From positions 1-42,363 of the forward strand of contig JANYIN010000071.1 of the NCBI GenBank assembly GCA_025362035.1: DNA of 42,363 nucleotides, in the 5' to 3' direction. Positions within the stretch are counted from its first letter, which is position 1. Each line of letters opens with the position of its first letter. Under the pieces are notes generated by a model, which worked only from the letters and a program-made list of their open reading frames with translations, was not told the origin of the DNA and did no database searches. The position numbers and the translations under genes are program-made. Below are positions 9,902-19,983 of this stretch, in pieces. This DNA comes from Gemmatimonadaceae bacterium. Its GTDB lineage: Bacteria > Gemmatimonadota > Gemmatimonadetes > Gemmatimonadales > Gemmatimonadaceae.

Positions 9902-10138
9902 TCAACGCTTCGGCAGCGGCGACGCCAGCGTGATCATCCGGCCGAGTCCGTTGTCCGACATCTTCTCCCACTGCCAGCCAACGGTGACCGATACTGGCGT
10001 CGCCACGGACGCTGTGCTGCACGAAAGCGTGACGTCCATGCCGATCGGTCGATCTGCCCCTCCGTCGACGACCGGCGTGTCGGCGGATTCACACTGCCAC
10101 TTCCGACCGGATGCGTCCGTCAAATTGCGCTGCGTCAT
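9902..10138 (-). CDS. Small conserved-looking protein of unknown function
   Basis: 78 aa, MTQRNLTDASGRKWQCESAD..., with no membrane segment or signal peptide. It looks beta-rich (DVTLSCSTASVATPVSVTVGWQWEKM) and has two cysteines. A well-placed Shine-Dalgarno (GAGGA, 10149-10145, 6 nt before ATG) and good codon usage support a real gene. A TATAGT sequence further upstream may be its -10 box. It precedes the secreted hydrolase gene by 77 bp on the same strand. I do not recognise the family. Confidence 0.6.
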   Translation of the reverse strand: MTQRNLTDASGRKWQCESADTPVVDGGADRPIGMDVTLSCSTASVATPVSVTVGWQWEKMSDNGLGRMITLASPLPKR

Positions 10139-18404: not shown

Positions 18405-18700
18405 GGGATCTCTTCCTGCGCGCGACGTGAAAGACCCACGACGTGCCAGAACACCTCGCGAACGGCTTCAAGCGGAAGGCCGTGCTGGCGCGCCGCCTCC
18501 ACGGCGCGACGAATTACCTCCGCTTCGCGCTGCGGATCGAGGATCGGCAGGCCGGCGGCGCGCTTGAGGTGGGCAGTGCGGCGGCCCAGAGTCACTCGCT
18601 CCGCAAGCAACGCCACGAGCTTCTGGTCGAGTTGTTCGATCTCGGCGCGGCATGCGGAGAGTTCGACACGCGGATCGGGCGGCGTGCCCGGGGTGGTCAT
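18401..18700 (-). CDS. Chorismate mutase (AroQ class, monofunctional)
   Basis: 99 aa. It rearranges chorismate to prephenate, the substrate of the next enzyme. The all-helical AroQ pattern is clear: RAEIEQLDQKLVALLAERVTLG (helix 1, with the catalytic Arg near its start), RRTAHLKRAAGLPILDPQREAEVIRR (conserved Lys and the D-P-x-R-E motif), and a final helix with EVFWHVVGLSRRAQEE. I use ATG 18700 because it overlaps the DAHP synthase stop (ATGA at 18697-18700); the frame extends a few codons upstream with an Arg-rich non-family sequence. The head-to-tail overlaps on both sides indicate tight coupling of the three enzymes. Confidence 0.9.
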   Translation of the reverse strand: MTTPGTPPDPRVELSACRAEIEQLDQKLVALLAERVTLGRRTAHLKRAAGLPILDPQREAEVIRRAVEAARQHGLPLEAVREVFWHVVGLSRRAQEEIP

Positions 18701-19758
18701 GCGATGCCGGCGCCGACGAGCGCCTCTCGCCACGAGGGAGCCTGAAATGAGCGCTCCGCGGCAATCGCAAATGCCGGAATCCGGGACATCATCGAGGCGA
18801 ACGCCTTGAAGTCGAGCGACTGGTCACCGTCGGACAACGCGTCCTCGGGATTCGGGTGCACTTCCACGATCAATCCATCCGCGCCGGCAGCGATGGCCGC
18901 ATACGCGAGTGGCGCCACGAGCTTCGCATCGCCGCCGGCATGACTCGGGTCGACGATCACGGGGAGATGCGACTCGCGCTTGAGGACCGGAATCGCCGAC
19001 ACGTCAAGCGTGTTGCGCGTCGCGCGTTCGAAGGTCCGAATGCCGCGCTCGCACAACACGATCTGGTGATTCCCGTTCGCCATGATGTATTCCGCCGCCA
19101 TCAACAGTTCGCTGATTGTCGCAGACAGGCCGCGCTTCAGCAGGATGGGACGCTGCACGCGCCCGAGTTCGGCCAGCAGGGCATAGTTCTGCATGTTGCG
19201 CGCGCCCACTTGCAGCATGTCCGCGTGCTCGGCCACGAGGTCCACGTCGCGCGTGTCGAGCACCTCGGTCACCACGGGCAGGCGAGTTTCGGCGCGCACG
19301 GCGGCGAGGAGCTCGAGCGCTTCGCGGCCGAGACCCTGGAACGAGTACGGCGAGGACCGGGGCTTGAAGGCGCCGCCGCGGAGAATCGTCGCGCCAGAAC
19401 TGCGCACCGCGACGGCCGTTTCCATCAGCATTGCGCGGTTCTCCACCGAACACGGCCCCGCGATGATGGTGAGATCGTGACCGCCGATGCTCGCGTGCTC
19501 TCCAACGCGCACCACCGTGCGATTCACCACGAACTCACGTGACGCCAGTTTGTACGGTTTCAGAATCGGCAGAATCGACTCGACTCCGGGGATCGAGCGG
19601 AGTGGCAGCTCCTCCAGCCGCGCCTCGTCGCCGATGCATCCGACGATCGTGCGGTGCTCGCCGCGCGACAGATGGGTGTGCAGGCCCGCCGCCTCGATGC
19701 GTTCTCTCAGGTGGTCAAGCTGGGCGTCGGTGATGTCGGGGCGGGTGATGATGATCAT
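18697..19758 (-). CDS. aroF: 3-deoxy-7-phosphoheptulonate (DAHP) synthase, type I-beta with N-terminal regulatory domain
   Basis: 353 aa. It condenses PEP and erythrose-4-phosphate, the first committed step of aromatic amino acid synthesis. Residues 1-70 ([20 protein letters not shown]... [18 protein letters not shown]) form the ferredoxin-like/ACT-like regulatory domain seen in Thermotoga-type enzymes, which confers feedback inhibition by Tyr or Phe in that group. The catalytic barrel shows [50 protein letters not shown] and [19 protein letters not shown], the PEP- and metal-binding motifs. It is the first structural gene after the attenuator, so its expression is probably set by Phe/Tyr-tRNA charging. 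It overlaps the chorismate mutase gene by 4 bp. Confidence 0.94.
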
Positions 19759-19796: not shown

Positions 19797-19827
19797 AACA
19801 AAAAGGCCCGTGAAGGTTCCACGGGCC
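19797..19827 (-). terminator. Rho-independent attenuator upstream of DAHP synthase
   Basis: On the minus strand GGCCCGTG (19827-19820), a 7-nt loop and CACGGGCC (19812-19805) form a perfect 8-bp stem, directly followed by TTTTTGTT (19804-19797). It lies between the leader-peptide stop and the DAHP synthase start. Its first arm is complementary to ACGGGCC (19893-19887) inside the leader ORF, so an alternative antiterminator can form. Confidence 0.85.
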
Positions 19828-19860
19828 GGCGGGATCGTATGCGGGAAGCGTGTGCTCCGG

Positions 19861-19947
19861 CTACTCGCGCGTACGACTCCTTCCACGGCCCGTAAGGGTA
19901 AAACCGTAGATATAGAAGCCGTAATAAAAGCTAGCGCGGGACGTCAT
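19861..19947 (-). CDS. Phe/Tyr-rich leader peptide of the aromatic amino acid operon
   Basis: 28 aa, beginning MTSRAS and then FYYGFYIYGF (residues 7-16: three Phe and four Tyr in ten), followed by TLTGRGRSRTRE and TAG. A run of codons for the pathway's end products between a promoter and a terminator is the hallmark of ribosome-mediated attenuation, as in pheL. No Trp codon is present, so control should follow Phe and Tyr but not Trp, as expected for a DAHP synthase, chorismate mutase and prephenate dehydrogenase operon. The ATG lies 6 nt after the -10 box, so the transcript would begin at or next to the start codon, and no Shine-Dalgarno is seen. Confidence 0.85.
   Translation of the reverse strand: MTSRASFYYGFYIYGFTLTGRGRSRTRE
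19885..19907 (-). promoter_or_regulatory. Leader hairpin sequestering the antiterminator segment
   Basis: On the minus strand ACGG (19907-19904) pairs with CCGT (19888-19885), and CCC (19898-19896) with GGG (19891-19889), with a TTTTA bulge (19903-19899) and a TTAC loop. It overlaps codons 14-21 of the leader peptide. A ribosome stalled at the Tyr/Phe codons would open it, freeing ACGGGCC (19893-19887) to pair with GGCCCGT (19827-19821) of the terminator and allow read-through. This is a hand-drawn fold, not an energy calculation. Confidence 0.6.
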
Positions 19948-19953
19948 GGTCGT

Positions 19954-19983
19954 AGGATAGGGGTGGTGGTGGGCGTTCGTCAA
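19954..19983 (-). promoter_or_regulatory. Promoter of the attenuated aromatic amino acid operon
   Basis: On the minus strand TTGACG (19983-19978), an 18-bp spacer and TATCCT (19959-19954) closely match the sigma70 consensus. The ATG of the leader peptide follows 6 nt after the -10 box, so the transcription start should fall on or within a few bases of the start codon. Confidence 0.75.

Follow-up and report, generated by a model that had tools for sequence, protein, structure and literature searches.

The operon for DAHP synthase, chorismate mutase, and prephenate dehydrogenase of a Gemmatimonadaceae bacterium is very likely controlled by a leaderless, ribosome-mediated transcription attenuator, which is predicted from its sequence to sense charged tRNA-Phe and tRNA-Tyr. 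The element and the operon lie on the minus strand of the 42,363-nucleotide stretch of DNA that was analyzed (the window). The anatomy of the element, its conservation, the spacing between promoter and start codon, and the covariation of its stems can be read directly from the window and its relatives. Family matches confirmed the three downstream genes named in the original prediction: DAHP synthase with a ferredoxin-like domain (PRK08673/TIGR01361; positions 18697 to 19758), type II chorismate mutase (PF01817; 18401 to 18733), and prephenate dehydrogenase (PF02153 and PF20463; 17532 to 18404).

The promoter was found where it had been predicted, with the -35 hexamer TTGACG at 19983 to 19978 and, after a spacer of 18 nt, the -10 hexamer TATCCT at 19959 to 19954; the positions of both are kept in relatives. 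The start codon of the leader open reading frame (ORF), MTSRASFYYGFYIYGFTLTGRGRSRTRE, follows 6 nt after the -10 hexamer. This ORF (19947 to 19861) begins with the ATG at 19947, has 28 codons, as predicted, and ends with the TAG at 19863 to 19861. It encodes three Phe, four Tyr, and no Trp residues, and all 7 Phe/Tyr codons fall within the 10 codons 7 to 16 (FYYGFYIYGF; 19929 to 19900), which folding with a parked ribosome designates as the control codons. Segment 1 (19923 to 19896) comprises the 5' arms of a protector hairpin (19923 to 19914, 19910 to 19904, and 19898 to 19896), which the fold places over the control codons. By complementarity and folding, segment 2, TTACGGGCCG (19895 to 19886), has two alternative partners, segment 1 and segment 3. 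Segment 3 (19828 to 19818), which was identified by complementarity, folding, and covariation in relatives, serves twice: 19828 to 19819 form the 10-bp antiterminator pairing with segment 2, and 19827 to 19818 are the 5' arm of the terminator. The 3' arm of the terminator is segment 4 (19814 to 19805), supported by sequence and by covariation in relatives. The complete terminator (19827 to 19805) has 10 bp and the loop ACC, and it is followed by the U-tract TTTTTGTT (19804 to 19797).

We evaluated how readily these parts could arise by chance. Among all ORFs of 12 to 59 amino acids in the window, only two starts, the ATG at 19947 and an in-frame TTG at 19983, yielded at least 5 aromatic residues within 10 codons, and when the local 2 kb were resampled 600 times under an order-1 Markov model, 7 aromatics in 10 codons never occurred. 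The fold of the window leader had a z-score of -2.8 relative to dinucleotide shuffles, 2 out of 200 shuffles being at least as good. Between positions 10000 and 29000, neither promoter-like sites (2 found, 2.1 expected) nor terminator-like sites (5 found, 9.8 expected) were enriched, and a match to the terminator arm as good as that of segment 2 occurred in 6 out of 100 shuffles of the window leader. Since the promoter, the terminator, and segment 2 are each within chance when taken singly, the weight of the case falls on relatives. Readings of the locus as a T-box or another riboswitch were dropped because the aromatic ORF is conserved and the Rfam covariance models, those of the amino acid leader families among them, gave no match at the gathering score, either for the window or for 12 relatives; relaxing the threshold to E values of 10 brought up just three weak matches between 19700 and 20050, all unrelated.

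To survey relatives, we searched for DAHP synthase in 148 genomes of the family and in an overlapping set of 249 genomes of the phylum. The 110 upstream regions collected belong to the best-matching DAHP synthases rather than to a random draw, and a few genomes contribute two. Nine of these regions (L061, L062, L064 to L069, and L072), which belong to paralogs or N-terminally different enzymes, were set aside after the upstream regions had been seen; none of the nine had a leader or passed the aromatic rule described below. Three regions of N-terminally different enzymes with a leader present (L063, L070, and L071) were kept. An aromatic-rich leader was present in 82 of the resulting 101 upstream regions; the family accounts for 58 of these (from 61 regions) and the rest of the phylum for 24 (from 40 regions). 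When the N-terminally different type is treated alike throughout, the count becomes 82 out of 103 (with L069 and L072) or 79 out of 98 (without L063, L070, and L071). Contig ends cut 2 of the 19 regions without a leader, and no leader was found in the three DAHP-synthase upstream regions of the outgroup class.

The automatic rule, 4 aromatics in 12 codons, was passed by 77 of the 101 aroF regions, compared to 3 of 31 hisG regions and none of 8 trpE regions of the same phylum; the hisG control consists of 31 of 33 hisG loci, two at contig ends being omitted. Five leaders that fell short of the rule were added by eye (L017, L037, L041, L042, and L046; the last four or all five have 2 to 3 aromatics in 12 codons). 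Conversely, L024, L203, L222, and L223 had been picked automatically but were judged spurious and removed. Because the leaders are related to each other, the p-values overstate the significance. Gene order was compared in 29 relatives (L004 to L032), where chorismate mutase was found near aroF in 25 and prephenate dehydrogenase also in 23. Across relatives, the sequence of the leader varies, and its aromatic content, spacing, and complementarity are constant. The aromatic codons and the complementary stems are conserved, as the original prediction had anticipated for related genomes.

That the leader would be translated from a leaderless mRNA had been proposed from the position of a single ATG. 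In relatives, a sigma-70 site scan that was blind to the position of the start codon placed the -10 hexamer of the best promoter 5 to 8 nt from the leader start for 63 out of 86 picks (the four later-discarded picks included). The same spacing was found in 2.9% of shuffled upstream sequence and at 2 out of 86 aroF starts. When an earlier tandem start is allowed, the spacing is 4 to 9 nt in 76 of the 82 leaders, and the three leaders that start with GTG (L009, L035, and L217) each do so 6 nt after the -10 hexamer. A Shine-Dalgarno-like motif precedes only 7 of the 82 leaders, as opposed to 46 of the 82 aroF genes in the same sequences. The usual distance from the -10 hexamer to the first transcribed base is 6 to 7 nt, so the observed spacing would put the start codon of the leader at or next to the 5' end of the transcript. 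In the window, the first base transcribed would be the A of the ATG at 19947 or a base within one or two of it. A published table, which presumably gives the percentage of genes with a Shine-Dalgarno sequence, lists the class Gemmatimonadetes with a value of 22, low among the classes shown (PMC10783764). In two genomes, a leaderless-promoter pattern with perfect hexamers had 10 and 12 matches, compared to 3 and 4 for the reversed pattern. The matches included the aroF leader in both genomes and 2 other short ORFs; a large set of attenuators with perfect hexamers was not found in these two genomes.

All 82 leaders are followed by a terminator, and the score of the own leader was reached by 1 out of 1,640 shuffles. 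The 5' arm of the terminator is complementary to a stretch of the leader in 81 leaders, as a rule just 3' of the aromatic codons; the remaining leader, L041, in which no segment 2 was found, was omitted from structure statistics. Segment 2 taken singly beat at least 95 out of 100 shuffles in 57 of the 82 leaders, the window not among them. The stem sequences differ by lineage (GGCCCGTG, GGCTCCCGG, GGCCCTCGG, CGGCCCCG, GCCCTGGGGA, and others), and their partners change along. For 30 of the 82 leaders, hand-picked for an alignable segment 2, covariation was examined in an alignment. Both sides were changed in 7 cells of the pairing between segments 2 and 3 (2:3), versus 0.8 in shuffles, and in 23 cells of the pairing between segments 3 and 4 (3:4), versus 6.7 in shuffles. 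On most measures, both pairings thus covaried more than shuffles; the exception is the number of further pair types in 3:4, which 144 out of 500 shuffles equaled or surpassed. Over 81 leaders, segment 2 paired with its own arm scored 22.7, as opposed to 18.4 with permuted arms (standard deviation of 0.38 in 200 permutations, a difference of more than 10 standard deviations). The complementarity noted in the window between the first arm of the terminator and the segment over or after the aromatic codons is confirmed, and 2:3 covaries in relatives. By covariation, an antiterminator that excludes the terminator is conserved; in single sequences, its signal is weak. Together with the recurrence of the leader and its terminator, the covarying stems support the proposed attenuator.

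Folding refined the hairpin that had been placed over the aromatic codons. The hairpin at 19907 to 19885 is present; in the minimum-energy fold, it makes up the inner portion of a stem that extends further (19910 to 19882, continued by the pairing of 19923 to 19914 with 19881 to 19872). In the window, segment 2 pairs upstream when no ribosome is included. With a ribosome parked on codon 7, 8, 9, 11, 12, or 14, which make up 6 of the 7 Phe/Tyr codons, segment 2 is free, and the RNA beyond the ribosome, with segment 4 still unmade, folds into the full 10-bp antiterminator at about -35 kcal/mol. A ribosome on codon 16 covers part of segment 2, and the antiterminator does not form. When the same folding, with segment 4 still missing, was applied to 81 leaders, 77 formed 2:3 with the ribosome on one or more of their aromatic codons and 62 with it on the last one; the window is not among these 62. 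If no ribosome is included and segment 4 is still missing, the minimum-energy folds contain 2:3 in 39 of 81 leaders and the pairing between segments 1 and 2 (1:2) in 39, so not every leader shows a clear protector hairpin. The folding proposed in the original prediction recovers the 1:2 hairpin and, with a parked ribosome, the antiterminator in the window. Once segment 4 is included, minimum-energy folding yields the terminator in 78 of 81 complete leaders, whether or not a ribosome is parked, and antitermination would therefore depend on timing. Such a preference is what is expected of a kinetic switch, and it also limits the argument that can be made from these models.

The position of segment 2 fits the dimensions of a ribosome. 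Segment 2 starts 13 nt (both the median and the mode of 81 leaders) past the first base of the preceding last aromatic codon, and the footprint of a ribosome with a codon in its A site has its front edge about 13 nt on. In the window, this distance is counted from codon 14. Segment 2 is located inside the ORF and ends, at the median, 22 nt upstream of the stop codon. In E. coli trpL, segment 2 is masked once the ribosome has reached the stop codon. The Gemmatimonadota leaders do not have this geometry: as segment 2 lies within the ORF, a ribosome at the stop codon would leave it unmasked. Termination probably follows from renewed 1:2 pairing, which is the least certain step of the mechanism.

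From these sequences, we infer the start site, the translation of the leader, the stalling, and the regulation as follows. Transcription would start from the A of the leader ATG, give or take a base or two, and a ribosome would load on the 5'-terminal AUG without a Shine-Dalgarno sequence; leaderless mRNAs are loaded by 70S ribosomes with fMet-tRNA. When charged Phe- or Tyr-tRNA is scarce, the ribosome would halt on codons 7 to 14 and cover segment 1, leaving segment 2 exposed. Exposed segment 2 would then pair with segment 3, and RNA polymerase would enter the operon. When charged tRNA is plentiful, the ribosome would pass segment 2 and reach the stop codon. Either 1:2 would re-form behind it or segment 2 would be occupied during its passage; 3:4 would then form, and transcription would stop at the U-tract.

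The same attenuator could be transcribed from a promoter further upstream, which would give the mRNA a normal 5' untranslated region and a leader that is not leaderless. The leader frame is indeed open upstream in the window, where it is part of a 244-amino-acid ORF antisense to an S58 peptidase gene (an ORF that looks fortuitous), and of 79 relatives tested, only 37 have an in-frame stop codon in the 90 nt that precede the leader. However, the scan blind to start codons recovered a nearly constant distance from the -10 hexamer to the start codon, Shine-Dalgarno-like motifs are rare before the leaders compared to aroF, and three of the four aromatic leaders found at DAHP synthase in other phyla appear by eye to be led by such a motif. 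We therefore consider an upstream promoter improbable.

Doubts about the leader ORF itself carry even less weight. In a GC-rich genome with many spurious ORFs, and in a region where terminator-like sites are not enriched, the terminator might end an upstream or antisense transcript, the aromatic ORF being fortuitous and the operon not attenuated. This would hardly account for an ORF that recurs in most upstream regions with a changing sequence and a constant aromatic content, spacing, and complementarity, nor for the scarcity of passes under the aromatic rule in the set-aside DAHP-synthase, hisG, and trpE regions, and we regard it as very improbable. Alternatively, the leader peptide might act in trans, as proposed for the rhizobial peTrpL, or stall the ribosome as an arrest peptide. 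In S. meliloti, the trp leader peptide is reported to have a second role (PMC7298713). In Gemmatimonadota, however, it is the composition of the leader peptide that is conserved rather than its sequence, and its frequent TGRG part overlies RNA segment 2, which leaves an action of the peptide itself with very little probability.

The leaderless attenuator at DAHP synthase, our preferred reading, varies in the residues that it would sense. The absence of Trp codons that had been pointed out holds for the window leader but not in general: Trp occurs before segment 2 in 12 of 58 leaders of the family and in 18 of 24 leaders of other families. A switch that responds to two or to all three aromatic amino acids is reasonable, since DAHP synthase supplies the pathway to each of them. 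The 82 leaders use the Phe codons TTT and TTC 99 and 47 times, as opposed to 50 and 230 times in the window genes; with leaders drawn from many genomes and genes from one, this preference for TTT is only suggestive. For the Tyr codons TAT and TAC, the difference between leaders (111 and 164) and window genes (58 and 113) is not significant.

We also examined other biosynthetic genes in the phylum. A His-rich leader (e.g., MPTLRQHHHHAHHGHGPTGRG...) was found before hisG in 28 of the 33 best-scoring loci (L238 to L243 and L247 to L273). The best promoter lies 5 to 10 nt before the start of 25 of these 28 leaders, and 27 have a terminator. The genome of the window itself has such a leader, MTISHRPHRVHQHGLPGRG..., with a GTG start (L241; G000:C182). 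The his leaders gave no covariation signal (20.2 for own arms versus 19.9 for permuted arms, the arms being nearly alike) and no Shine-Dalgarno contrast (5 of 28 before the leaders versus 5 of 28 before hisG). A Phe-rich leader with a terminator precedes prephenate dehydratase in 2 out of 33 loci, a count that leaves out a locus at a contig end (L300). Tyr is absent in one of the two leaders (L236, genome G042) and occurs once in the other (L237, genome G016); for L236, the Phe-rich ATG frame was taken by eye, the automatic pick being a TTG in another frame. At trpE, no leader was seen by eye in any of 8 loci (a ninth, a weak second match in G022, was left out), nor was there an ORF with 2 Trp or 4 aromatics in 12 codons. 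Inspection of the two ilvB and two leuA loci with the strongest matches gave no leader either. Two single-contig genomes of the family, G022 and G048, had no match to models of the acetolactate synthase large subunit or bacterial leuA, which suggests that the synthesis of branched-chain amino acids is missing or divergent in them. The presence of His before hisG and of Phe before some prephenate dehydratase genes, with no leader at trpE, supports pathway specificity.

Two further loci contain short leaderless ORFs with other residues. In L168 (G022:C1:3722103), at about 1500 to 1760 of the locus, a leaderless ORF of 37 codons with several Cys codons is followed by a terminator-like stem and a U-tract; it lies upstream of an ORF that by eye resembles a TonB/SusC-type receptor, and it is possibly a Cys-sensing leader. 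In L163 (G000:C57:30587), a promoter, a leaderless 23-codon ORF with several Asn codons, and a terminator-like stem precede what appears by eye to be a tRNA with the anticodon GTT (Asn).

Attenuators of the enteric pheL/pheA, trpL, and hisL type consist of control codons, a protector, an antiterminator, and an intrinsic terminator, and their leaders are translated from a Shine-Dalgarno sequence. The order of elements in the window is the same; the difference is in the Shine-Dalgarno start. Descriptions of the pheL and trpL attenuators are found in the literature (PMC11802643). Closer in content is aroR of Corynebacterium glutamicum, described as a leader peptide with the residues Phe-Tyr-Phe before the DAHP synthase operon aroF (PMC11802643, PMC4046766). 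According to one of these sources, limitation of Phe raises its transcription, and the availability of Tyr was reported not to matter (PMC11802643). Compared by its published description, aroR shares with the window a Phe/Tyr leader before a DAHP synthase operon and differs in its phylum and in the 3 aromatic residues named, versus 7 in the window leader. The C. glutamicum attenuators studied by Neshat and colleagues in 2014 are reportedly leaderless transcripts.

Leaderless leader peptides have been listed for Streptomyces lividans (TrpL1, TrpL2, LeuL1, LeuL2, IlvL, MetL, and ThrL; PMC8079986), and the C. glutamicum ilvBNC leader was described as having no ribosome binding site (Morbach 2000). 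The S. lividans leaders resemble the window in that a short leaderless ORF rich in an amino acid precedes genes for that amino acid, in some cases with a U-rich terminator; they and ilvBNC differ in the amino acids and genes concerned and belong to Actinobacteria. With a promoter directly before the start codon and mostly no Shine-Dalgarno sequence, the Gemmatimonadota leaders have the traits of the actinobacterial type. Polycysteine leaderless short ORFs of mycobacteria, described as acting by translation attenuation (Canestrari 2020), likewise are leaderless sensing ORFs that answer to an amino acid, in this case cysteine. The claim that such an attenuator is undescribed therefore stands for the phylum but not overall, aroR and the S. 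lividans leaders showing that this kind of element is already known. Within the literature searched on Gemmatimonadota and Gemmatimonas, a coverage that takes in few subscription journals, no such attenuator or leaderless leader peptide was found. As far as this search reaches, the novelty lies in the phylum, in how widely the leader is conserved, and in the his leader that parallels it.

By itself, the aromatic rule is a loose guide outside the phylum. We read the upstream regions of 77 out of 80 DAHP-synthase loci, and the rule was passed by 20, of which 4 belong to Gemmatimonadaceae. Most of the other 16 passes are probably due to chance in AT-rich sequence. Four of the loci outside the phylum contain an aromatic-rich leader with a terminator-like stem, one in Syntrophobacterales (L077), two in Calditrichota (L110 and L148), and one in Desulfacinum (L152). 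In contrast to the Gemmatimonadota leaders, L077, L148, and L152 have by eye a Shine-Dalgarno-like stretch before the start; L110 is ambiguous. This hints that DAHP synthase is attenuated more widely than has been recorded, and that the leaderless form is characteristic of Gemmatimonadota.

Leaderless attenuators apparently extend beyond Actinobacteria, as these findings indicate. Dozens of natural variants with a near-constant distance from the -10 hexamer to the start codon offer a good test of how RNA polymerase and a leaderless ribosome can be coupled as early as the first nucleotide, and they also suit the question of whether one leader senses two or three amino acids. A more speculative proposal, to which we give rather less than even weight, is that attenuation in Gemmatimonadota forms a regulon whose sensing ORFs are, as a rule, leaderless, with Phe/Tyr (and Trp in sister families) read at DAHP synthase, His at hisG, and Phe at some prephenate dehydratase genes. 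If this is true, and the 5'-terminal start codon alone is used, the switches would respond to the condition of leaderless initiation (70S ribosomes and the balance of IF2 and IF3) in addition to tRNA charging, and a leader with Phe, Tyr, and Trp would act as one switch for the three aromatic amino acids together. For the Gemmatimonadota, which are widespread in soil and have few cultured species, the element described here provides a predicted regulatory mechanism with exact coordinates.
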